From Megaustenia siamemsis (taxonomy: Eukaryota > Mollusca > Gastropoda > Stylommatophora > Ariophantidae), in the NCBI GenBank assembly GCA_032433765.1, contig JAVIAB010000102.1:15381730-15445729 (forward strand): a DNA stretch of 64,000 nt, read 5' to 3'. A program made the translations under genes and the position numbers. The notes beneath the pieces are model-generated. The model saw nothing but the letters and a program-made list of their open reading frames with translations. It searched no databases and was not told the DNA's origin. Each line of letters starts with the position of its first letter. The stretch's first letter is position 1. Below, in pieces: positions 3,922-58,880 of this stretch.

Positions 3922-5915
3922 TTAGAAGTGTAGGGCTATGTTCTTCATGGTTACCTGAACACCTAATCTCGCGATGGCGAATCTCCAGCAGCGGCTCCCT
4001 TCAAGTTTCTCGTTTCTGGCTGTCCCAATCATAACTCCAATCTCTTTCATCCGAAGAAGTGATGTGGACTCATGGTTGTGGAAGTCCTGTGCCCTTCCCA
4101 TATTTTGGAGGGCATTGAGGACGTCCGTTCGTTCCATTGGTTGATCGTCTTCAACGACGGCACAGCTAGCCAACCTGTCCGTTCTTTCATTTACCCGTAC
4201 TCCCACATGTCCAGGAACATACACAAATGTGACGTATTTTTAATTCTTCAGTGACTCTACTCATTGCCTGCGTACAGTGCCCGCCTCCACTTTTTCTTAT
4301 CATGCTTATCGACTCACTTGGTATGCAAGAGTGGGTGTAGTCTTATGACTATAACCAGATGAATGCCTTGGTCACTGCCATCACCTCCATCGTCCTGCTA
4401 CTCGTGATCATAACGTATGCACCACTGTCTTCCTTGACCATTCTGCCTGCCGAGCGTGCTGTAAATGTCCGTGCACTCCTTCGGTGTCGTCTTACAGATC
4501 CGTCTGTATAGATGCTTTCTCATCGATGTTACCGCAGATGAGACCGTTGACCTCCGCATTGACCACGACTGAGTTATGTTCCCTACATTTCCTGTCGAGC
4601 GTGACAATACACGAGAATGTGCCCTGGAGTTACGTAGGCACTTGTATTCACTCCTCGTCAGCATTGATATTGGTACGCCCACAGACCTGTTTGATTACAT
4701 CTTCAGCTCGGCACACTCATAATTTGCCTCTTTTTAGCCTGGCACCTTTCCCTGTGTTGAGCTCATGGTGCAATGGATGCTCTTTATCTGCACTAATCTT
4801 CAGGTATGCTCGTGCCCTCCAGATCTTGATTCTGTCATCCATGGTTGGAAAGTCAAGAAGATGCATCATTGCTACACAGGGAGTGTTTCTTGTACTCCCC
4901 AAGATAATGCGCATGGCTTCATTCTGTATTTTCTCCAGCCTGTCAATTTGAGTCGTACTGACAATAAGAATTGCCAGGGCATACTCGATTGGTGCGAGGA
5001 CTAATCCATGAAACAGAAGAGTAAGTAGCCTCTGCTCGATGTTGGCAGCTGCCATGACCTTCAAGGCGGCTAATCCTTTGCGGATTTTGTTATCACATGG
5101 TCGACGTGGTCCCGAAAACACAGGCTGCGGTCAAACTTAACTCCGAGGTACGTCATCAGCCTATCCCTGGTCACCTCATCAGCTCCCATTCGTACCACCG
5201 ATGTTTCCGTGTTAACGATATGATTGTTAAGTGAGAACCATTCAACTGATGCTTTATTAGGATTAACCAAGGCACCTGATACCCCACACCAGGAAGAAAT
5301 GTGATCGAGTTCGTCTTGCATTGTGGAGGCGATTCCCCGTCTGTCTTTTCCCTGTCGACATACCAGAATATCATCAGCAAAAGTCATAGTTCTTCCCCTC
5401 CCATCCAGCTGTTGTTCCGTGATTGTTATTGTGTACACGTTAAATAGAACTGGTGACAATGGTGAGCCTTGTGGCAGCCCTGAACAAATGGATGTTGGCT
5501 CTGATAACCAACTTCCACATCTGAGTATCACCTTCCTCTGAAACAGTGCCGCAGCGATCCATCTAATGAGGAAGGGGTGCACCGCCAGTTTGAGGAGCAT
5601 GTGCTTGAGGTATTCAAATGGTACCCTGTTGTATGCATCCTCCAGATCTATAGCAGCAGCACATGTCTCCTCTCGTCTGTGGAAGCCTTCGAAGACGTCA
5701 TAGGTGAAGACTGCCGCATTGAGCCATGTCTTTTTGTTATATCTATGACCTCTGAGTATGGGTGGGAATACGCGTATCTGTTTAATGTGACAGGTGAGTA
5801 TATGGGCGACTATTTTCTCCAGTAGCTAGCCCGCAGTGTTCTGTATCGTGATGATTCTGTAGGTACTGATTCGAGAGTGGTCCTTGTTTGGCTTCGGTTG
5901 CGGTAGTAAGTAGCT
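3922..5915 (-). mobile_element. Degenerate non-LTR retrotransposon (reverse transcriptase plus RNase H)
   Basis: Read on the minus strand from 5915 the sequence gives reverse-transcriptase blocks in order: PKPNKDHSRIS, LLEKIVAHIL, the metal-binding block IDLEDAYNRV (about 5650), SGLPQGSPLSPVLFN (about 5480) and the catalytic FADDIL (about 5380). A thumb segment follows near 4717-5121, then an RNase H domain with TDGSV (about 4505), MEVMAVTKAF (about 4385) and VPGHVGVRVNERTDRLAS (about 4210). RNase H downstream of RT points to an I-like or related clade. It is dead: an in-frame TAG at 5826-5828, a frameshift near 5100, and stops between the RNase H blocks. The frame is open from 5825 to about 5072. 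No endonuclease part or flanking duplication was found. Confidence 0.88.
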
Positions 5916-6451: not shown

Positions 6452-7120
6452 GACGAGACCTGTTTCTACTTTGTGGGTCATGGTCACCCACAACCACACG
6501 AGTACACTCTCACACACACACACGAATACACTCAATGACGAGACCTGTTTCTACTTTGTGGGTCATGGTCACCCACACCCACACATCATAAACTCTCACA
6601 CACACACACGAGTACACTCAATGACGAGACCTGTTTCTACTTTGTGGGTCATGTTCACCCACAACCACATATCATAAACTCACACACACACACACGAGTA
6701 CACTCGATGACGAGACCTGTTTCTACTTTGTGGGTCATGGTCACCCACAACCACACATCATAAACTCACACACACACACGATGACGAGACCTGTTTCTAC
6801 TTTGTGGGTCATGTTCACCCACAACCGCACATCATAAACTCTCTCACACACACACGAGTACACTCAATGACGAGACCTGTTTCTACTTTGTGGGTCATGT
6901 TCACCCACAACCACACATCATAAACTCACACACACACACGATGACGAGACCTGTTTCTACTTTGTGGGTCATGTTCACCCACAACCACACATCATAAACT
7001 CACACACACACACACGAGTACACTCAATGACGAGACCTGTTTCTACTTTGTGGGTCATGTTCACCCACAACCACACATCATAAACTCACACACACACACG
7101 AGTACACTCAATGACGACAC
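6452..7120. repeat. 74/86-bp minisatellite with CA tracts, about 9 copies
   Basis: Successive starts of GACGAGACCTGTTTCTAC fall at 6452, 6537, 6623, 6709, 6783, 6869, 6943, 7029 and a diverged copy at 7113. Spacing is therefore 85-86 or 74 bp. The difference is presence or absence of a GAGTACACTCA block beside a (CA)n run. Each unit also holds GTGGGT and ACCCAC arms around a 7-nt loop. The array fills nearly all of the intron between the 7135 and 6379 exon edges and begins about 15 nt inside the 5' splice site on the minus strand. Confidence 0.95.
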
Positions 7121-7134
7121 ATGTCACCACATAC

Positions 7135-7289
7135 CTGCTCCTTGTGGACATACATTGGTTTGTTGAACACGACCCACGTGACCGTCTCTAGGCAACCGGG
7201 CTGCGTCATGGAGCCATCATACGTCATGTAGTCATGGGTCTTTGGTAACAGTGCGGTCATCGTGAGGTCTGGAACTGGTGTTGAGTTGC
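7135..7289 (-). CDS. CA-related gene, exon 6 (C-terminal core)
   Basis: This 155-nt block follows an acceptor (CCTCCATTCAG) and precedes a GTATGTGG donor. It enters with 2 nt that complete a Gly codon with exon 5, then 51 codons including LLPKTHDYMTYDGSM and TQPGCLETVTWVVFNKP. In alpha carbonic anhydrases this is the SLTTPPLxExVTW segment. Here the catalytic Thr199 position is Gln and a Cys follows PG, the Cys that forms the disulfide in secreted CAs and CA10/CA11. The length matches vertebrate CA exon 6 (about 156 nt). It is fully open and looks intact. Confidence 0.93.
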
Positions 7290-7339
7290 CTGAATGGAGG
7301 GGTCAAGGGTTGCGTCATTACATGACCTTACCAACATAG

Positions 7340-10300
7340 ACATGTGGGAGTGTGTTGTATCGATGGGAACAGGTGGGAGTGTGTTGTATCGATGTGAACA
7401 GGTGGGAGTGTGTTGTATCGATGGGAACAGGTGGAAGTGTGTTGTATCGATGTGAACAGGTGGGAGTGTGTTGTATCAATGGGAACAGGTGGGAGTGTGT
7501 TGTATCAATGGGGACAGGTGGGAGTGTGTTGTATCAATGGGGACAGGTGGGAGTGTGTTGTATCAATGGGGACAGGTGGGAGTGTGTTGTATCAATGGAG
7601 CCAGGTGGGAGTGTGTTGTATCAATGGGGACAGGTGGGAGTGTGTTGTATCGATGGGAACAGGAGGGAGTGTGTTGTATCAATGGGGACAGGTGGGAGTG
7701 TGTTGTATCAATGGGGACAGGTGGGAGTGTGTTGTATCAATGGGGACAGGTGGGAGTGTGTTGTATCAATGGGGACAGGTGGGAGTGTGTTGTATCAATG
7801 GGGACGAGGTTGGAGTGTGTTGTATCAATGGGGACAGATGGAAGTGTGTTGTATCAATGGAGACATGTGGGAGTGTGTTATATCAATGGGGACGAGGTTG
7901 GAGTGTGTTGTATCAATGGGGACAGATGGAAGTGTATTGTATCAATGGGGACAAGGTGGGAGTGTGTTGTATCAATGGGGACATATGGAAGTGTGTTGTA
8001 TCAATGGGGACAGATGGAAGTTTGTTGTATCAATGTGGACATATGGAAGTGTGTTGTATCAATGGAGACATGTGGGAGTGTGTTGTATCATTGGAGACAT
8101 GTGGGAGTGTGTTGTATCAATGGAGACATGTGGGAGTGTGTTGTATCAATGGGGACGAGGTTGGAGTGTGTTGTATGAATGGGGACAGATGGAAGTGTGT
8201 TGTATCAATGGGGACAAGGTGGGAGTGTGTTGTATCAATGGGGACAAGGTGGGAGTGTGTTGTATCAATGGGGACAGGTGGAAGTGTCTTGTATCAATGG
8301 GGACAGATGGAAGTGTGTTGTATCAATGGGGACAGGTGGAAGTGTGTTGTATCAATGGGGACAGATGGAAGTGTGTTGTATCAATGGGGACAGGTGGAAG
8401 TGTGTTGTATCAATGGGGACAGATGGAAGTGTGTTGTATCAATGGGGACAAGGTGGGAGTGTGTTGTATCAATGGGGACAAGGTGGGAGTGTGTTGTATC
8501 AATGGGGACAGGTGGAAGTGTGTTGTATCAATGGGGACAGATGGAAGTGTGTTGTATCAATGGGGACAAGGTGGGAGTGTGTTGTATCAATGGGGACATA
8601 TGGAAGTGTGTTGTATCAATGGGGACAGATGGAAGTGTGTTGTATCAATGTGGACATATGGAAGTGTGTTGTATCAATGGGGGCATATGGAAGTGTGTTG
8701 TATCAATGGGGACAGATGGAAGTGTGTTGTATTAATGTGGACAAGGTGGGAGTGTGTTGTATCAATGGGGACAGATGGAAGTGTGTTGTATTAATGTGGA
8801 CAAGGTGGGAGTGTGTTGTATCAATGGGGACTGATGGAAGTGTGTTGTATCAATGGGGACAAGGTGGGAGTGTGTTGTATCAATGGAGACAAGGTGGGAG
8901 TGTGTTGTATCAATGGGGACAGATGGAAGTGTGTTGTATTATTGGAGACAGGTGGGAGTGTGTTATATCAATGGAGACAGGTGGGAGTGTGTTGTATCAA
9001 TGGAGACAGGTGGGAGTGTGTTGTATCAATGGAGACAGGTGGGAGTGTGTTGTATCAATGCAGACAGGTGGGAGTGTGTTGTATCAATGGAGCCAGGTGG
9101 GTGTGTGTTGTATCAATGTGGACAGATGGAAGTGTGTTGTATCAATGGGGACAGATGGAAGTGTGTTGTATCAATGGGGACAAGGTGGGAGTGTGTTGTA
9201 TCAATGGGGACAAATGGAAGTGTGTTATATCAATGGAGACAGGTGGGAGTGTGTTGTATTAATGGAGACAGGCGGGAGTGTGTTATATCAGTGGAGACAG
9301 GTGGGAGTGTGTTATATCAATAGAGACAGGTGGGAGTGTGTTGTAAGAATGGAGACAGGTGTGATGGTGTTGTATCAATGGAGACAGGTGTGAGTGTGTT
9401 GTATCAATGGAGACAGGTGTGAGTGTGTTGTATCAATATAGACAGGTGGGAATGTCTTGCATCTATGGAGACAGGTGGGAGTGTGTTGTATTAATGGAGA
9501 CAGGTGGGAGTGTGTTGTATCAATGGATATAGGTGGGAGTGTGTTGTATTAACGGAGACAGGTGGGAGTGTGTTGTATTAATGGAGACAGGTGGGAGTGT
9601 GATGTATCAATATAGACAGGTGGGAATGTGTTGTATTAATGGAGACAGGTGGGAGTGTGTTGTATCAATGGAGACAGGTGGGAGTGTGATGTATCAATAT
9701 AGACAGGTGGGAATGTGTTGTATTAATGGAGACAGGTGGGAGTGTGTTGTATTAATGGATATAGGTGGGAGTGTGTTGTATTAATGGAGACAGGTGGGAG
9801 TGTGTTGTATTAATGGATATAGGTGGGAGTGTGTTGTATCAATGGAGACAGGTGGGAGTGTGTTGTATTAATGGATATAGGTGGGAGTGTGTTGTATTAA
9901 TGGGTATAGGTGGGAGTGTGTTGTATCAATGGAGACAGGTGGGAGTGTGTTGTATTAATGGAGACAGGTGGGAGTGTGTTGTATTAATGGATATAGGTGG
10001 GAGTGTGTTGTATCAATGGAGACAGGTGGGAGTGTGTTGTATTAATGGAGACAGGTGGGAGTGTGTTGTATTAATGGATATAGGTGGGAGTGTGTTGTAT
10101 CAATGGAGACAGGTGGGAGTGTGTTGTATTAATGGAGACAGGTGGGAGTGTGTTGTATCAATGGAGACAGGTGGGAGTGTGTTGTATCAATAGAGACAGG
10201 TTGGAGTGTGTTGTATCGATGGAGACAGGTGGGAGTGTGTTGTATCAATAGAGACAGGTGGGAGTGTGTTGTATCAATAGAGACAGGTGGGAGTGTGTTG

Positions 10301-11699
10301 TATCGATGGAGACAGGTGGGAGTGTGTTGTATGAATAGAGACAGGTTGGAGTGTGTTGTATCAATGGAGACAGGTGGGAGTGTGTTGTATCAATGGAGAC
10401 AGGTGGGAGTGTGTTGTATCAATGGAGACAGGTGGGAGTGTGTTGTATCAATGCAGACAGGTGGGAGTGTGTTGTATCAATGGAGCCAGGTGGGTGTGTG
10501 TTGTATCAATGGGACAGATGGAAGTGTGTTGTATCAATGGGGACAGATGGAAGTGTGTTGTATCAATGGGGACAGATGGAAGTGTGTTGTATCAATGGGG
10601 ACAAGGTGGGAGTGTGTTGTATCAATGGGGACAGATGGAAGTGTGTTATATCAATGGAGACAGGTGGGAGTGTGTTGTATTAATGGAGACAGGTGGGAGT
10701 GTGTTATATCAGTGGAGACAGGTGGGAGTGTGTTGTATCAATGCAGACAGGTGGGAGTGTGTTGTATCAATGGAGCCAGGTGGGTGTGTGTTGTATCAAT
10801 GGGACAGATGGAAGTGTGTTGTATCAATGGGGACAGATGGAAGTGTGTTGTATCAATGGGGACAGATGGAAGTGTGTTGTATCAATGGGACAAGGTGGGA
10901 GTGTGTTGTATCAATGGGGACAGATGGACGTGTGTTATATCAATGGAGACAGGTGGGAGTGTGTTGTATTAATGGAGACAGGTGGGAGTGTGTTATATCA
11001 GTGGAGACAGGTGGGAGTGTGTTATATCAATAGAGACAGGTGGGAGTGTGTTGTAAGAATGGAGACAGGTGTGAGTGTGTTGTATCAATGGAGACAGGTG
11101 GGAGTGTGTTGTATCAATGGAGACAGGTGTGAGTGTGTTGTATCAATATAGACAGGTGGGAATGTCTTGTATCTATGGAGACAGGTGGGAGTGTGTTGTA
11201 TTAATGGATACAGGTGGGAGTGTGTTGTATCAATGGATATAGGTGGGAGTGTGTTGTATTAATGGAGACAGGTGGGAGTGTGTTGTATTAATTGAGACAG
11301 GTGGGAGTGTGATGTATCAATATAGACAGGTGGGAATGTGTTGTATTAATGGAGACAGGTGGGAGTGTGTTGTATCAATGGAGACAGGTGGGAGTGTGAT
11401 GTATCAATATAGACAGGTGGGAATGTGTTGTATTAATGGAAACAGGTGGGAGTGTGTTGTATTAATGGATATAGGTGGGAGTGTGTTGTATTAATGGAGA
11501 CAGGTGGGAGTGTGTTGTATTAATTGATATAGGTGGGAGTGTGTTGTATCTATGGAGACAGGTGGGAGTGTGTTGTATTAATGGATATTGTTGGGAGTGT
11601 GTTGTATTAATGGATATAGGTGGGAGTGTGTTGTATCAATGGAGACAGGTGGGAGTGTGTTGTATCAATGGAGACAGGTGTGAATGTGTTGTATCGAGT
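7340..11699. repeat. 29-bp minisatellite, about 150 copies
   Basis: The unit holds GGGAGTGTGTTGTATCAATG plus a variable end (GGGACAGGT, GAGACAGGT, GATATAGGT). Units of 28-30 bp also occur, for example with ACAAGGT. Because 29 is not a multiple of 3 and the unit lacks stops, all three plus frames stay open for up to 480 codons; these Cys/Val/Gly-rich ORFs are artefacts. Unit types change along the array: GGGACAG types dominate to about 8930, GAGACAG and GATATAG types after. A block of about 750 bp near 9060-9800 recurs 1710 bp downstream with its rare variants. The right end is interrupted by a retrotransposon at 11700. Confidence 0.98.
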
Positions 11700-15990: not shown

Positions 15991-17763
15991 TGATGCTTAC
16001 CTTTATAAGGGACTTTGCTGATTGCGTTCATCACAATACTTACCTTTATATGGGACTTTGCTGATTGCGTTCATCACAATACTTACCTTTATATGGGACT
16101 TTGCTGATTGCGTTCATCACAATGCTTACCTTTATACGGGACTTTGCTGATTGCGTTCATCACAATTCTTACCTTTATACGGGACTTTGCTGATTGCGTT
16201 CATCACAATTCTTACCTTTATACGGGACTTTGCTGATTGCGTTCATCACAATTCTTACCTTTATACGGGACTTTGCTGATTGCGTTCATCACAATTCTTA
16301 CCTTTATATGGGACTTTGCTGATTGCGTTCACCACAATTCTTACCTTTATACGGGACTTTCCTGATTGCGTTCATCAGAATTCTTACCTTTATACGGGAC
16401 TTTGCTGATTGCGTTCATCACAATTCTTACCTTTATATGGGACTTTGCTGATTGCGTTCACCACAATTCTTACCTTTATACGGGACTTTGCTGATTGCGT
16501 TCATCACAATTCTTACCTTTATACGGGACTTTGCTGATTGCGTTCATCACAATTCTTACCTTTATACGGGACTTTGCTGATTGCGTTCATCACAATTCTT
16601 ACCTTTATACGGGACTTTGCTGATTGCGTTCATCACAATTCTTACCTTTATATGGGACTTTGCTGATTGCGTTTACCACAATGCTTACCTTTATACGGGA
16701 CTTTGCTGATTGCGTTCATCACAATTCTTACCTTTATACGGGACTTTGCTGATTGCGTTCATCACAATTCTTACCTTTATACGGGACTTTGCTGATTGCG
16801 TTCATCACAATTCTTACCTTTATACGGGACTTTGCTGATTGCGTTCATCACAATTCTTACCTTTATACGGGACTTTGCTGATTGCGTTCATCACAATTCT
16901 TACCTTTATATGGGACTTTGCTGATTGCGTTTACCACAATGCTTACCTTTATACGGGACTTTGCTGATTGCGTTCATCAGAATTCTTACCTTTATACGGG
17001 ACTTTGCTGATTGCGTTCATCACAATTCTTACCTTTATATGGGACTTTGCTGATTGCGTTCACCACAATTCTTACCTTTATACGGGACTTTGCTGATTGC
17101 GTTCACCACAATTCTTACCTTTATACGGGACTTTGCTGATTGCGTTCACCACAATTCTTACCTTTATACGGGACTTAGCTGATTGCGTTCACCACAATTC
17201 TTACCTTTATATGGGACTTTGCTGATTGCGTTCACCACAATTCTTACCTTTATACGGGACTTTGCTGATTGCGTTCACCACAATTCTTACCTTTATACGG
17301 GACTTTGCTGATTGCGTTCACCACAATTCTTACCTTTATACGGGACTTTGCTGATTGCGTTCATCACAATTCTTACCTTTATACGGGACTTTGCTGATTG
17401 CGTTCATCACAATTCTTACCTTTATACGGGACTTTGCTGATTGCGTTCACCACAATTCTTACCTTTATACGGGACTTTGCTGATTGCGTTCATCACAATT
17501 CTTACCTTTATACGGGACTTTGCTGATTGCGTTCACCACAATTCTTACCTTTATACGGGACTTTGCTGATTGCGTTCACCACAATTCTTACCTTTATACG
17601 GGACTTAGCTGATTGCGTTCACCACAATTCTTACCTTTATACGGGACTTTGCTGATTGCGTTCACCACAATTCTTACCTTTATACGGGACTTTGCTGATT
17701 GCGTTCACCACAATTCTTACCTTTATACGGGACTTTGCTGATTGCGTTCACCATGATGTTAAA
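15991..17763. repeat. 43-bp array of exon 5 end plus splice donor, about 41 copies
   Basis: On the minus strand each unit reads GCAATCAGCAAAGTCC, CGTATAAAG, then GTAAGAATTG and TGATGAAC or TGGTGAAC. The first part encodes NAISKVPYK, the 3' end of exon 5 of the CA-related gene, and GTAAG is its 5' splice site. The first and last donors (17716-17720 and 15996-16000, plus coordinates of CTTAC) are 1720 bp apart, exactly 40 periods, giving about 41 donors. The leftmost copy has GTAAGCATC, probably the original intron start or its edge. The unit length of 43 is not a multiple of 3, so use of any donor other than the first would shift the frame. Confidence 0.95.
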
Positions 17764-17787
17764 TTCACTGTTCATCACATTTCCGAT
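17721..17787 (-). CDS. CA-related gene, exon 5
   Basis: The acceptor TTTGGTCCTTAG is followed by 67 nt: 22 codons reading IGNVMNSEFNIMVNAISKVPY K plus one base, then GTAAG. It enters in phase 0 from exon 4 (…ALFGT) and leaves in phase 1, completing Gly with the GC that starts exon 6. In CA10/CA11 this is the FIKVxxxxNPFLNxML….IxYK segment. Vertebrate CA exon 5 is of similar length (63-67 nt). This copy is the only one with an acceptor; the other forty 3' halves lie downstream in the array. Confidence 0.87.
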
Positions 17788-21649: not shown

Positions 21650-22043
21650 CACCTCCAAACTGCTCCAACAACTTTATAACACCTCCACATAGAACAACTT
21701 TATACCACCTCCACATAGAACAATTTTATACCACCTCCACATAGATCAACTTTATACCACCTCCACATAGATCAACTTTATACCACCTCCACATAGAACA
21801 ACTTTATACCACCTCCACATAGAACAACTTTATACCACCTCCACATAGAACAACTTTATACCACCTCCACATAGAACAACTTTATACCACCTCCACATAG
21901 AACAACTTTATACCACCTCCACATAGATCAACTTTATACCACCTCCACATAGATCAACTTTATACTACCTCCACATACAACAACATCCTACCACCTCCAC
22001 ATAGAACAACATCCTACCACCTCCACATGGAACAACTACCTAC
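21650..22043. repeat. 26-bp array starting at the exon 4 splice donor, about 15 copies
   Basis: The unit (plus) is ACCTCCACATAGAACAACTT plus TATACC. On the minus strand the first unit is GTAGGTAGTTGTTCCATGTG plus GAGGTG, and its first bases are the GT donor of exon 4. Units two and three begin GTAGGATG; later ones begin GTATAAAG. The array therefore starts at the exon boundary itself, with no unique intron sequence between. Confidence 0.93.
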
Positions 22044-22139
22044 AGTGCCGAACAAAGCAACAGCTGCTACACCATGAGCCGCCAGAGCCGCATCCTGAAA
22101 GCTGGTAAACAACTCTGTGTTGTAGCCGTAGATCTGCAG
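22044..22139 (-). CDS. CA-related gene, exon 4
   Basis: The acceptor TGTATCTCCACAG precedes 32 codons: LQIYGYNTELFTSFQDAALA then AHGVAAVALFGT, followed by GTAGGT. Joined in phase 0 to exon 3 (…FPLE) it gives ELQIYGYN, the position of ELHLVHWN in active CAs. Zinc ligand His119 is Gln, as in CA10/CA11. I prefer the donor at GTAGGT because it gives phase 0 and a 96-nt exon; a donor 4 nt downstream (GTAGTT) would break the join to exon 5. Confidence 0.88.
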
Positions 22140-25354: not shown

Positions 25355-25447
25355 AATAAGGACCAAGGCAGGATCGAACCCGTACTCAGTGGCACAGCGC
25401 TTTGCCACGAAAAGCCAAACGCTAGGGAACACTGTCACTCAGCTAAC
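25355..25447 (-). repeat. tRNA-like SINE head
   Basis: On the minus strand TTAGCTGAGTGACAG resembles box A and GGGTTCGATCCTGCC is a good box B about 60 nt on, with a long variable arm between. It abuts the RT fragment at 25450 and truncates it. A real tRNA is unlikely because the acceptor arms do not pair. Confidence 0.55.
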
Positions 25448-25449
25448 TA

Positions 25450-25856
25450 AAACAGTTAGTTTGTGATCTCTCATCTAATATACCCATTTTATCCTGCATC
25501 TGTTGATGGCTGTGTGATAGGAGAGCTATGTCATCAGCAAAGTCTAAATCATCAAGTTGTTTGGTCAGTGACCACTGGATTCCATTTCTGTTGTTTTGAG
25601 TTATTTTCATAATCCAATCTATGGCCAGTAGAAAGAGAAATAGAGACAGAAGGCATCCTTGCCTTACTCCTGTTCTTATTTCAAATGCTTCTGTAATCTG
25701 TCCTTCATGCACCACACTACATTTTGTTCCTTCATACATTGTTTTTATCAGATTAATAAACTTTATGGGGATTCCATAATGACTCAGCAACTTCCAAAGC
25801 ATTCTTCTGTCTAAACTATCAAATGCCTTTTCGTAATCTATGAATCCAATATAAAG
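25450..25856 (-). mobile_element. RTE-like RT fragment
   Basis: The minus strand encodes FIDYEKAFDSLDRRMLW (metal-binding block), GVRQGCLLS, then LDDLDFADDIALLSHSHQQM (catalytic block). It stops where the tRNA-like head begins. The FADDIALLSH and WSLTKQLDDLD stretch matches the copy at 11700-12533 closely, so both are from one family. Both sides are truncated. Confidence 0.85.
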
Positions 25857-25989
25857 TGGGGAACAAAATTATTAATGGAGAATAAACAATCGATAACAGC
25901 GGCGATAAAGAAGATAATGCCTGACTTATTTTTATTTGTACAATTCTTTTTATTTATTATTTTATTTGGATAAAATGAGGAGGAGAAGG

Positions 25990-29518: not shown

Positions 29519-29603
29519 CTCGAGCGGGAAAGGTCTTCCACCAATCGTGTGCTCAGATCCAATAAGATCAAGGCTTCCAAAGTGTAGTTTGATGTGATGA
29601 ACT
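29519..29603 (-). CDS. CA-related gene, exon 3 (zinc-site segment)
   Basis: The acceptor TTATTTTCCCAG is followed by 85 nt and a consensus donor GAG/GTAAGTG. The first base completes Arg (AG from exon 2 plus A), then VHHIKLHFGSLDLIGSEHT and IGGRPFPLE. Active alpha-CAs have HFHWGS here; LHFGS with Lys at ligand position 94 and His at 96 is the CA10/CA11 pattern. GSEHT and the PLE end (Glu106 and Glu117 positions) are kept. It ends at the same place as vertebrate CA exon 3. Intact and open. Confidence 0.93.
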
Positions 29604-30759: not shown

Positions 30760-31990
30760 GTAAGTGATGTCAGCTCAGACAACTGTCAAATGCAGTAAGT
30801 GATGTCAGCTCAGACAACTGTCAAATGCAGTAAGTGATGTCAGCTCAGACAACTGTCAAATGCAGTAAGGGATGTCAGCTCAGACAACTGTCAAATGCAG
30901 TAAGTGATGTCAGCTCAGACAACTGTCAAATGCAGTAAGTGATGTCAGCTCAGACAACTGTCAAATGCAGTAAGTGATGTCAGCTCAGACAACTGTCAAA
31001 TGCAGTAAGTGATGTCAGCTCAGACAACTGTCAAATGCAGTAAGTGATGTCAGCTCAGACAACTGTCAAATGCAGTAAGTGATGTCAGCTCAGACAACTG
31101 TCAAATGCAGTAAGTGATGTCAGCTCAGACAACTGTCAAATGCAGTAAGTGATGTCAGCTCAGACAACTGTCAAATGCAGTAAGTGATGTCAGCTCAGAC
31201 AACTGTCAAATGCAGTAAGTGATGTCAGCTCAGACAACTGTCAAATGCAGTAAGGGATGTCAGCTCAGACAACTGTCAAATGCAGTAAGTGATGTCAGCT
31301 CAGACAACTGTCAAATGCAGTAAGTGATGTCAGCTCAGACAACTGTCAAATGCAGTAAGTGATGTCAGCTCAGACAACTGTCAAATGCAGTAAGTGATGT
31401 CAGCTCAGACAACTGTCAAATGCAGTAAGTGATGTCAGCTCAGACAACTGTCAAATGCAGTAAGTGATGTCAGCTCAGACAACTGTCAAATGCAGTAAGT
31501 GATGTCAGCTCAGACAACTGTCAAATGCAGTAAGTGATGTCAGCTCAGACAACTGTCAAATGCAGTAAGTGATGTCAGCTCAGACAACTGTCAAATGCAG
31601 TAAGTGATGTCAGCTCAGACAACTGTCAAATGCAGTAAGTGATGTCAGCTCAGACAACTGTCAAATGCAGTAAGTGATGTCAGCTCAGACAACTGTCAAA
31701 TGCAGTAAGTGATGTCAGCTCAGACAACTGTCAAATGCAGTAAGTGATGTCAGCTCAGACAACTGTCAAATGCAGTAAGTGATGTCAGCTCAGACAACTG
31801 TCAAATGCAGTAAGTGATGTCAGCTCAGACAACTGTCAAATGCAGTAAGTGATGTCAGCTCAGACAACTGTCAAATGCAGTAAGTGATGTCAGCTCAGAC
31901 AACTTTCAAATGCAGTAAGTGATGTCAGCTCAGACAACTTTCAAATGCAGTAAGTGATGTCAGCTCAGACAACTGTCAAATGCTGTAAGT
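30760..31990. repeat. 35-bp minisatellite, about 35 nearly identical copies
   Basis: The unit is GTAAGTGATGTCAGCTCAGA plus CAACTGTCAAATGCA. Copies are almost perfect, with GTAAGGG in two and CTTTC in two near the right end. Low divergence suggests recent expansion or homogenisation. Confidence 0.98.
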
Positions 31991-33088
31991 TGTGGTGAGG
32001 TAAGTGATGTCAGCTCAGACAACTGTCAAATGCAGTAAAGTTGTGAGGTAAGTGATGTCAGCTCAGACAACTGTCAAATGCAGTAAGTTGTTGTGAGGTA
32101 AGTGATGTCAGCTCAGACAACTGTCAAATGCAGTAAGTTGTTGTGAGGTAAGTGATGTCAGCTCAGACAACTGTCAAATGCAGTAAGTTGTTGTGAGGTA
32201 AGTGATGTCAGCTCAGACAACTGTCAAATGCAGTAAGTTGTTGTGAGGTAAGTGACGTCAGCTCAGACAACTGTCAAATGCAGTAAGTTGTTGTGAGGTA
32301 AGTGATGTCAGCTCAGACAACTGTCAAATGCAGTAAGTTGTTGTGAGGTAAGTGATGTCAGCTCAGACAACTGTCAAATGCAGTAAGTTGTTGTGAGGTA
32401 AGTGATGTCAGCTCAGACAACTGTCAAATGCAGTAAGTTGTTGTGAGGTAAGTGATGTCAGCTCAGACAACTGTTAAATGCAGTAAGTTGTTGTGAGGTA
32501 AGTGATGTCAGCTCAGACAACTGTCAAATGCAGTAAGTTGTTGTGAGGTAAGTGATGTTAGCTCAGACAACTGTCAAATGCAGTAAGTTGTTGTGAGGTA
32601 AGTGATGTCAGCTCAGACAACTGTCAAATGCAGTAAGTTGTTGTGAGGTAAGTGATGTCAGCTCAGACAACTGTCAAATGCAGTAAGTTGTTGTGAGGTA
32701 AGTGACGTCAGCTCAGACAACTGTCAAATGCAGTAAGTTGTTGTGAAGTAAGTGATGTCAGCTCAGACAACTGTCAAATGCTATAAGTTGTTGTGAGGTA
32801 AGTGATGTCAGCTCAGACAACTGTCAAATGCAGTAAGTTGTTGTGTGGTAAGTGATGTCAGCTCAGACAACTGTCAAATGCAGTAAGTTGTTGTGAGGTA
32901 AGTGATGTCAGCTCAGACAATTGTCAAATGCAGTAAGTTGTTGTGAGGTAAGTGACGTCAGTTCAGACAACTGTCAAATGCAGTAAGTTGTTGTGAGGTA
33001 AGTGACGTCAGCTCAGACAACTGTCAAATGCAGTAAGTTGTTGTGAGGTAAGTGATGTCAGCTCAGACAACTGTCAAATGCTGTAAGT
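31991..33088. repeat. 50-bp minisatellite containing the 35-bp unit, about 21 copies
   Basis: From about 31986 every 35-bp unit gains a 15-bp GTAAGTTGTTGTGAG insert, making a 50-bp period. Scattered single changes (GACGTCA, CTATAAG, GTGTGGT) are present. The two arrays are continuous, so the longer unit arose from the shorter one. Confidence 0.97.
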
Positions 33089-33129
33089 CGTTTCAATGAA
33101 CTTTGCAACAGGAGGCAGTCTGATCATCA

Positions 33130-52262: not shown

Positions 52263-52965
52263 ATTCACACACAAAGATATGAGATGTGACTAACACAGAC
52301 ATGCACACACAAAGATATGAGATGTGACTAACACAGACATGCACACACAAAGATATGAGATGTGACTAACACAGACATGCACACAGCGATACGAGGCATG
52401 ACTAACACTGACACACATCAAGATATATGACATATGACTAACATAAACATGCACATAAAGATATGAGATATGACTGACATAGACATACACACACACAAAT
52501 ATGAGATGTGACTAACATAACCATGCACATAAAGATATGAGATATGACTGAAATAGACATGCACACACAAGATATGAGATGTGACTAACATAACCATGCA
52601 CACACAAGGATATGAGATGTGACAGACACAGACATGCACACACAAAGATATGAGATATGACTAACATAAACATGCACACAAAGATATGAGATAGCACTAA
52701 CCCAAATATACACACACAAAGATATGACACATGACTAACACAGATACACACTAAGATATGAGATATGACTAAACACATACACACATAAAGATATGAATCA
52801 TGATTAACACGGACACACCAAGATATGAGATATGACTAACATGACACACACCAAGATATGAGCCATGGCCAGCACACACACACACAAGCTAAGATATGAG
52901 CCATGGCTAGCACAGAAACACACCAAGAAATGAACCATGTCCAGCACAGAAACACATTAAGGTAT
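52263..52965. repeat. 38-bp degenerate minisatellite, about 18 copies
   Basis: The unit is ACACACAAAGATATGAGATG plus TGACTAACACAGACATGC. The first three copies are identical; the rest vary in length and sequence, losing the period toward 52960. Confidence 0.93.
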
Positions 52966-54618
52966 CCATATGCTTGGATTTGTTATAGTCGGCAGACTCT
53001 TCTTAACGTGGGAATCATCGACATACGAGACGCAGGCCCCGATTAACTGTTCACAGGTTTCGTTCAAACAGTTGTCCGGAGATTTGAGAGTGCAGTCTGA
53101 CCCGTAGAACGTTCCCTTGCATGTACAGTTCTCGGTTGACTGTTCACAGATGTCATTGAAACAGTTGTCCTGACATTTGAGAGTACAGTCTGACCCGTAG
53201 TACGTTTCCTTGCACGAACAGTCTGTACTTTCCGGGTCACTTATAATGCCACAGCCCTCAGAACACGTCTGTTTGCAGTGTAGCCCAAAATTACCATCGG
53301 GACAAGTGTCATTACAGGTGAAGCCAGGATGTTTACATTGTAGACATTTTCAGGATTTTTCCTCACATAAAGGACAGACACTAAGACACGACCCGGAGCA
53401 GTCGTGTCCATAGATCCCATGTGAACAGTTGCCGTGACACGTATCGATGATGACGTTGCAGCCTTTGCAACACCCACAACACAATGCACAAAACGACCAA
53501 GAATGCCCGTCCTGACAATAAGTGTCTCTAAATGTTTGCACCTCACACACCGTCAGTGCACTGTCGGCCTGCGAAATGGTCGGTGAGAACTAAATCTTAA
53601 TGTGTGCCATTGACGCTTGTGTGGTGACTACAGTAGTGTTCACAGAAATATTTGGGTATGATGTATCGTTATACTGGAACACTACACCGCCACTGTCAGA
53701 GAAAGCCTTTAGAGTGACATTCTTTACCCGAATCATAGTGCTAGCTCGATATAAATTCGAATGGTGTGAGTCTTCTGGGGCGTGGCAAAGTTCAGACACC
53801 AGTAAACAGAATTGGCTCCACTTCTCAATTGTGTGTGTGTGCAGTCATTTTCATAGAGATTGGTCTTTGTTTTGCCATTAACTTCGGCCTCTGGTCCACA
53901 TCCGTCTCCAGTATAACAAGCATTAAATGTGTCGGTCTGGTTTGTGTTCTGTTGAGAGCCACATTCCGACCCCCGCCAATGTAGATGGAGCAGATATTTG
54001 CAACTATCGCCCCTTCGATCCGTAACTTGTTGATCAGACCAGCCCCAGAGTAAAAGACATAAATCTCGTGCGAACTAACTACAAACCTTGATTCATTGTT
54101 ACATGAGGCAAAACTATTTAGTTTTACCGTGAAACTGTCCGGATAGTTAAGTGATTCACATAAATCCTAAACCAGGAGAACGGCAAAGATTGATTGAGAG
54201 TTGCCGCAACTGATGTAGAATCTGTGTCCGGATTACATGTGGTGTCGTTATCAAACAGGAAAGTAGGTTCAGATTTTTGGGCGTATTTATAAACGAGATC
54301 CAAGTACTGACACTAGGGTTCGAAATATCCATGCTGACAACTGTCATTGTTTGGGCATGTCCCTGTAGTTTTGTCACAAACTGAGTCATTATAGCAGTGA
54401 CATTGTAACGTACAATTTGCCCCAAACCAACCGTTTGCACAAGTTAGGTCATTAACTTCCAAGGTCGCGAACGAAGCCAGCAGAATAAAGACTTGATCTA
54501 CATCGGTGGTAACGAACTGTGTACAAACATTTATTATCAAACCCGTGGTTACATTTCTAAAAATCTGCCAACTCGCTGTGATAACAGATAGCGTGATGTT
54601 CAAAGTCAAATTTGTTTA
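52963..54618 (-). pseudogene. Broken lectin-like (FTP type) plus EGF-repeat protein
   Basis: Minus strand, from 54618: a beta-rich segment, an EGF-like module CANGWFGANCTLQCHCYND, then after TAG (54313-54315) a galactose-binding-like segment ending FRIYVNH. A frameshifted FTP lectin start follows, RNVALNRTQT (about 53965) with AEVNGKTKTNLYENDCTHTQ, then VRNVTLKAFSDSGG-like sequence and VVFQYNDTSYPNISVNTTVV. Next are several Cys-rich EGF/scavenger-type modules: CHGNCSHGIYGHDCSGSC, CNDTCPDGNFGLHCKQTC, CSCKETYYGSDCTLKC, CTCKGTFYGSDCTLKS. In-frame stops at 53590 region and 53350-53352 and several frameshifts show that it is dead or a very poor copy. Molluscs have many secreted or receptor proteins with this domain mix. 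It ends in the 38-bp array. Confidence 0.82.
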
Positions 54619-56952: not shown

Positions 56953-58880
56953 CTTTCACTTTCACTTTCACAAAATATAGCACCGAAACGTAATTGTAGT
57001 TTTAATCAAGATTTACAAAAGGAATACCCTTTTATAAAAAAAAGTCTACATCGTCATCAGACTTCACTGTAAGATGTAATATATGTTCATCCGGGTTTAC
57101 TATTAACCATAGTGGACGTGGTGATATTAAGAGCCACATAAATAGTGATAAACATAAGAGAGCCGTCGCTACTGCTGCATCAAGCTCGTCGTTGACAAAT
57201 TTTTTTCGAGCTGAACAGGTTGGTGACAAAGAAGAACAGTTAGCTGCTACAGAAGGTGTCTTTGCATATCATACAGTGATGCACAATCACACGTTTAGAT
57301 CTATGGACTGCACATCAAAATTGCTTCAGGTAACTTTAGAACCAAAATTTGCTTGTGCACGTACGAAAACAGAAGCTATTATTCGGAATGTGTTCACACC
57401 CCATGCTCTAAACGAGTTGAGATGTGACCTAGAAAACGTAACATTTATCTCCATACTGACAGATGCCTCCAACCACAAAGAAATCAAGATTTTTCCTTTG
57501 CTTGTCAGATACTTAGATCGCAATAAGGGACTGAAAGTAAAATATTAGAGTTGAAGTCATTGCCGGGTGAAACATCTGATATAGTAAGTAGTTTTCTTAT
57601 TGACTGTCTAACTGAAAATGGTTTAGAACTGAAAGTAGTTGGATTATGTGCAGACAACACAAATTCTAATTTTGGGGGCGCTCAAAGAAAAGGACAGAAC
57701 AATGTTTTCACAAAACTGAAAGAAAACCTTGGACATAGTTTGATAGGTGTTGGGTGTGCTTGCCATATTTTCCACAACACTGTTCGAGCAGCTGCAGACG
57801 TATTGCCTGTTGATGTTGAAATGACTATTGCAAAAATGTATCTGTACTTCAAATCATACTCAGATAGAGTTGAAAGTCTCAAGGAGTTTTGTCAGTTTGT
57901 CGACACAGACTACCAGATGATTTTAGGTCATGCACAAACTAGGTGGCTTGCGCTCTTGCCTGCTGTTGAAAGGGTTCTTTACATGTTCCTGCCTCTAAAA
58001 TCATATTTTCAATCTCAAGACAGATGCCCAGTTTTTATACAGGAATTCTTTGAAAACCCACTGTCTGAGGCATGGCTTATTTTGGTTCACAGTCAGGCAT
58101 CCTCTTTCCACGAAGCTGTGCAGAAAGTAGAGGGACAGATGGTCACTGTATTTGAAGTCATTGACAACATCAATAGGTTGAAAGCTATCTTGGAGTCCAA
58201 GCTGGAAGACGGCTTCTTGCCATCAAGAGTTCAGATAATCCTTAAAAAGCTGGAAATGGAAGGATTTCCACGTGATGATGTGAACAAGTTTAACGCCAGT
58301 GTTTCTTCATTTTATGAAACAGCTTTAAGTTATTTGAAGAAATGGGCTGCAAATAATTTTCAAAACCTAGAGTCTTACAGCTGGGTAATGCTGAACAGAA
58401 CACCAAATTGGGAAGATATTGAGAAGTCTTCATCATTAGTGAGTCAAACAGTGCCTTCAGTCGACTTTCCAGAAAATGAAATGTATGACGAATATGTCTA
58501 CATGAAACAGTTCGTTACTTCACAAAAATTAGTGAGTGGAGTCTTAATAAAACATTACCAGGGCAGCGTTGGGTTGAACTAGCTTCCCACTTCAGAAACA
58601 ATCATGTGCCCGTTTCACATATTCTGAAGTTGGCAGAGTTCTTTTTGTGTCTGCCTGGAACAAATGCTGCAACAGAACGAGTGTTTTCTCTGATGAACAG
58701 TTGTGGACAAATGATAAAACACAACTAGGTGTTGAAACTTTAAAAGCCATGTTGATCACCAAAGTGAACTATGAGGGAACATGTGTCGAATTTTATAAGA
58801 TGCTGCATACAAAGAAGGACATTTTACAGAAAATTCACTCATCTGAAAAGTACAGCATCTCTGTTTCACCTTCAATTTAA
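56953..58880 (+). pseudogene. hAT transposase with zinc finger, three frameshifts
   Basis: N-terminal part: a zinc finger RCNICSSGFTINHSGRGDIK then SHINSDKHKRA (CxxC and HxxxxH), followed by SLTNFFRAEQ. RNase-H-like core: LTDASNH (first Asp, about 57462), GLCADNTNSNFGG (second Asp, about 57652), CACHIFHNTVRAAADVL, HAQTRWLALLPAVERVL. The C-terminal hAT dimerisation segment is LPGTNAATERVFSLMNS (about 58655). Frame breaks at about 57543 (KVK to ILELKSL), about 58545 (to LPGQRWVELASHF) and about 58703 (LMNS to LWTNDKTQLG) are each one nucleotide. About 640 codons otherwise open. No in-frame ATG lies before 57551, so the start is lost or in an upstream exon. Recently dead or damaged by sequence errors. 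Confidence 0.9.

Follow-up and report, generated by a model that had tools for sequence, protein, structure and literature searches.

The window, i.e., the whole stretch of 64,000 nucleotides that was analyzed, is located at G000:C101:15381730-15445729 in a 2.59-Gb genome of 155 contigs. It contains four exons of a carbonic-anhydrase-like gene, all of them on the minus strand. These are exon A (29519..29603, 85 nt, donor GAG/GTAAGTGAT, where the slash marks the exon border), exon B (22044..22139, 96 nt, donor ACT/GTAGGTAGT), exon C (17721..17787, 67 nt, encoding IGNVMNSEFNIMVNAISKVPYK(G)) and exon D (7135..7289, 155 nt, donor CAG/GTATGTGGT). Each of the four exons has AG and GT borders, and the joined reading frame is open. 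The original prediction assigned the gene to the alpha carbonic anhydrases, and the profile search of the joined translation bears this out: the match to PF00194, which includes exon B, covers residues 2-133 with E 3.6e-36 and a score of 125.5 bits, the cut-off being 27 (the peptide scored differs by one residue at the B-C joint from the final joint). The exons keep the motifs GSEHT and TYDGSMTQPGC...ETVTW. When the translation is aligned to carbonic anhydrase III, K and Q occupy two of the three positions that we take to be the zinc histidines, and a catalytic enzyme is therefore unlikely. It is normal for carbonic-anhydrase-related proteins to have lost zinc histidines. A tblastn search of the 64,000-nt window with paralog peptides recovered exons A, B (one weak match) and D, and no N-terminal exons. 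The nearest exon D paralog found by tblastn among 30 query loci in the genome (L020) has 54% identity, and neither exon B nor exon C could be recognized within 9.5 kb upstream of that exon.

The 3' end of exon C forms the beginning of a 43-bp minisatellite of about 41 copies (15996..17750, minus strand; 40.8 copies with 97% matches according to TRF). The sequence AAAG/GTAAG occurs 41 times on the minus strand and all 40 spacings between consecutive occurrences are exactly 43 nt; the first G of the donor is located at 17720, 17677 and so on down to 16000. These counts agree with the predicted amplification, about 41 times, of an exon end together with its 5' splice site, and with the predicted distance of 40 periods between the donors at 17720 and 16000. 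Such a number of copies with a perfect period is far beyond chance. Exactly 33 identical nucleotides precede donors 1 and 2; consequently, the unit consists of 33 nt of the end of exon C and 10 nt of the intron, close to the division foreseen, and spans the exon-intron boundary with an exon part, a donor and an intron part. Exon C itself (17787-17721) is the sole copy in the array that has an acceptor (..CCTTAG/), again as anticipated. The 43-bp unit is found at one locus only: an exact search of the whole 2.59-Gb genome with a 29-nt degenerate unit pattern gave 36 matches, all of them inside this array.

Ten unit types are distinguishable among the 40 full units, which follow each other in the order AABAACACC...HIJ. 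The zone on the exon side consists mainly of type A and that on the intron side mainly of type C; the units nearest the exon are identical or near-identical to it, and the last three units on the intron side are diverged and unique. The block FCCCC recurs, starting at units 19 and 25, and a unit map with a repeated block is as expected for growth by block duplication. Variation is confined to 7 of the 43 columns of the unit, and the donor core is invariant across the 41 copies. Selection on the donor core inside the array is unproven; given 7 variable columns out of 43, a core of 9 nt would escape variation by chance with P = 0.17.

The consequence of using different donors can be read directly from the joined exons. 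Use of donor 1 keeps the reading frame open through all four exons, whereas use of any donor from 2 to 41 brings translation to an end at one common codon (residue 95 in the joined stretch), following ..PYKGKNCGERNQQSPV. The stop is common to all of them because it is located in the unit itself, in the first unit that is retained. Therefore, the protein can be obtained from donor 1 alone, and since the same stop is reached from all 40 later donors whether in frame or not, frame arithmetic is not decisive. The suggestion that later donors cause isoform diversity through a shift of frame is thus retained only in part: an early stop and a truncated form do follow from their use, but protein diversity beyond that one truncated form is excluded at exon C by the common stop. 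Transcripts in which a stop precedes later exon junctions are usually subject to decay. The common stop lies upstream of both the C-D junction and the junction after exon D, and under this rule decay of the transcripts from donors 2-41 is predicted. Nothing in the core favors donor 1 because donors 1-41 all read AAAG/GTAAG.

Tandem repeats constitute 60% of the window; most of them are minisatellites whose units measure 20-90 bp. On the minus strand, a 26-bp array of 14.3 copies (21667..22037) is found 7 nt into the intron after exon B, with a first unit that, judged by eye, starts at the donor; an 86-bp array of 8.1 copies (6452..7124) starts ~10 nt past the exon D donor, and a 29-bp array of 149.8 copies (7338..11695) ends 49 nt before the exon D acceptor. 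At 30760-33092 there are 35-bp and 50-bp arrays in which the plus-strand unit begins with the donor-like GTAAGTGATG; the gene is encoded on the other strand. The window also contains reverse transcriptase fragments at 4717-5825 and 25443-25868 on the minus strand (two of the stretches checked match RVT_1), two overlapping long open frames of 180 and 351 aa at 57006-58582 on the plus strand, which are transposase-like by eye and have no Pfam match, and cysteine-rich open frames at 52957-53589 on the minus strand, EGF-like by eye, two of which were scanned and gave no Pfam match at E 0.01.

Recurrence of such duplications was assessed at exon ends elsewhere in the same genome. The sample started from 60 carbonic anhydrase and myosin exon loci, from which L009, L011 and L023 were dropped for lack of a clear exon end, leaving 57 donors and 56 acceptors (L059 has no acceptor call). 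Adding 20 dynein and kinesin exons, with only ~300 nt of flank each, and exons A-C of the window gave 80 donors and 79 acceptors. The exon ends are calls based on the ends of HMM matches and the splice consensus rather than on annotation, and the sample is not random in that carbonic anhydrases were picked because of the present finding. A boundary-spanning copy was defined as a repeat of at least 20 nt with 80% identity that spans the splice site, located within 1 kb downstream of a donor or upstream of an acceptor. Such copies were detected at 6 of the 80 donors (L037, L039, L062, L075, L087 and exon C of the window; 5/79 without exon C) and at 5 of the 79 acceptors (L014, L032, L055, L066 and L079, of which L014 has an uncertain acceptor that sits within its array). 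Five block shuffles per site gave 1.0/80 donors and 0.2/79 acceptors. This criterion misses arrays without the exon side or with decayed donors, such as those at exon B of the window and at the kinesin locus L080 (25 bp x 20.5 copies, from position +2).

At the myosin locus L062 (match 1501-1689 and downstream), an array rich in CAG/GTGAG, with a 34-bp unit and 37.4 copies, starts 98 nt past the donor; CAGGTGAG occurs there 38 times, counting the authentic donor. The paralog L061 is without the array; it has two CAGGT copies 17 nt apart, a distance equal to half of the 34-bp period. In the dynein loci L075/L089, the exon end and donor, including at least 36 nt of exon, are duplicated once, 98 nt further on, perhaps an early stage of the same process. 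The arrays of L014 and L032 have units that include a likely acceptor and are the mirror image of the donor case. A COX1 fragment in the invertebrate mitochondrial code is located beside a tandem repeat on a nuclear contig (L091, G000:C151:10323780-10324580) and is probably a mitochondrial insertion; its best matches are metagenome proteins, with up to 89% identity. The genome contains 71 matches to the hemocyanin profile PF14830, in two clusters. We take this hemocyanin beta-sandwich to be molluscan; the clustered mollusc-type hemocyanin points towards a mollusc and, along with the size of 2.59 Gb, indicates that the genome is not that of a lancelet. A search for the arthropod cuticle profile PF00379 gave no match, but neither did it give one in any control.

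Minisatellites that span exon-intron boundaries have been described in amphioxus under the name of mirages, in the genes Adh3, globin, TnC and PGBD5 (sections of PMC3087553 and PMC3902484; TnC and PGBD5 in the latter). We consider it highly probable that the 43-bp array is a minisatellite of the mirage type, which grew by local duplication across a 5' splice site and the adjoining end of exon C and which is mostly inert in splicing. Some indication of its birth comes from the single-copy context, in which the exon flank is followed directly by the sequence from donor 41 onward. In this context, one CATCAT in the exon and another 6 nt into the intron have a spacing of exactly 43. Of all exact repeats with spacings of 15-69, this pair is the longest, and runs of at least 6 at spacing 43 are obtained in 233 of 20,000 shuffles; taken by itself, the match is thus only moderately improbable as a chance event (about 1% at spacing 43). 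In the present units the corresponding place is mostly occupied by AATTGT and otherwise by CATTGT, TATTGT or AATTCT; CATCAT is found at 1 of the 41 positions, the last. The pair suggests slippage between short direct repeats. The array may have started by slippage or misrepair between the two CATCAT copies and would then have grown by unequal exchange, with its edge on the exon side presumably staying anchored because the exon is under selection. Both this context and the L061/L062 pair would fit arrays that were born from short direct repeats and then amplified. Splicing would proceed mainly through donor 1, which adjoins the sole acceptor, and the other 40 donors would be removed with the intron. 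Leakage to donors 2-41 would give the early-stop transcript, to be degraded or translated into the truncated form; by analogy with human IFI6, where the first downstream repeat donors are reportedly used (part of a paper citing Turri et al. 1995), some leakage is likely here too.

Other readings of the locus are less probable. The gene could be a pseudogene undergoing decay, and the array would then be inconsequential. The replaced zinc histidines and the failure to find N-terminal exons within the window point in this direction, as does the comparison of exon D with its nearest paralog, where the 39, 35 and 36 differences at the three codon positions over 48 codons are about equal; no sign of constraint could therefore be shown, but the comparison is saturated and uninformative on selection. 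Against this stand four open exons with good splice sites and both carbonic anhydrase motifs, and replaced zinc histidines are no anomaly among carbonic-anhydrase-related proteins; we regard decay as unlikely. A more active role would have the array work as a regulator, with splicing at several of the first donors and an unproductive fraction that varies with copy number and tunes expression. The same early stop from each later donor, the intact cores in 41 of 41 copies and the precedent of IFI6, in which two downstream repeat units reportedly serve as donors, are all compatible with regulation, but intact cores are no evidence of selection at P = 0.17 and the amphioxus mirages are reportedly inert (parts of PMC3087553 and PMC3902484), so that we find a regulatory role very unlikely.

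The splice donor itself might also seed minisatellites, which would make donors hot spots of array birth. Among the carbonic anhydrase and myosin loci, an array is found within 51 nt of 12/57 donors against 7/56 acceptors (the 12 include the near-identical copies L028 and L029), and the CAGGT repeat in L061 is suggestive in the same sense. The boundary-spanning copies, on the other hand, are about as frequent at acceptors as at donors, and array coverage in the same loci is lower at the donor (2/57 at +3) than at +50 (11/57) or deeper in the intron (15/57 at +120 and 13/57 at +1200); in the dynein and kinesin loci it amounts to 1/20 at +3 and 3/20 at +120. Acceptors being hit as often and coverage falling towards the donor, the pattern is one of constraint rather than of seeding, which makes seeding by donors highly improbable. 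Introns are occupied by arrays as far as the exon border, with the splice site included in some cases, and nothing shows that donors attract the arrays.

With local duplication as the preferred reading, the array takes mirages outside the lancelets, in the form of a large array, and the sampled loci suggest that boundary-spanning duplications touch several percent of the splice sites in the genome. A stronger proposition is that mirage formation operates genome-wide in this mollusc-like genome, repeatedly copying the splice sites of ordinary genes, with several percent of introns having competing splice sites in arrays and gene output tied to copy number via unproductive splicing; we consider this distinctly unlikely. 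The locus and its like are a natural system for testing a long-standing question in splicing, namely which of many identical donors is chosen with a single acceptor, and the choice has a clear read-out because every donor except the first gives a stop. Short direct repeats across the exon edge are a likely birth route, and the L061/L062 paralogs, with L061 unexpanded, are a suitable pair for studying the birth of an array.

The original prediction held that no comparable example had been described. This does not stand, since the amphioxus mirages and the IFI6 donor minisatellite, as presented in portions of the works cited above, are of the same kind. A literature search, little of it worded for molluscs, found no report of mirages in molluscs, which is weak evidence of absence. 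Another related process is intron gain by AGGT duplication (portions of PMC4974935), which likewise involves tandem duplication with AGGT, and each 43-bp unit holds AAAGGTAAG; here, in contrast, the units have no evident new intron or working acceptor, and an existing intron has been extended. The units hold AAAG/GT, with no pyrimidine tract ahead of it by eye. Human repeats at exon-intron boundaries are said, in part of PMC2812944, to form new introns possibly. The minisatellite of IFI6, in the account given by the citing paper, begins at the exon end as in our case and its units carry usable donors (a predicted property here); it differs in that its units are reportedly used, yielding three mRNAs, whereas here all later donors lead to a stop, and in that the 43-bp unit carries 33 nt of exon. 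The closest likeness is to the amphioxus mirages. According to sections of PMC3087553 and PMC3902484, these too are tandem units composed of part of an exon, a splice site and part of an intron, they affect both 5' and 3' boundaries as in the present genome, their published unit lengths of 10-160 bp include 43 bp, and those of Adh, TnC and globin reportedly leave splicing intact without aberrant mRNA. A further feature of mirages is a copy number that is unstable between haplotypes or cells; in the one assembly covered here, the unit map of the array has a duplicated block. For BflGb6, 3 and 6 units are printed versus 41 here (the copy number of Adh3 is outside this comparison). The host is not a lancelet, but lancelets are where mirages have been reported rather than a defining feature; the array, striking in size, is classed here among the mirages, which it would bring to another lineage.
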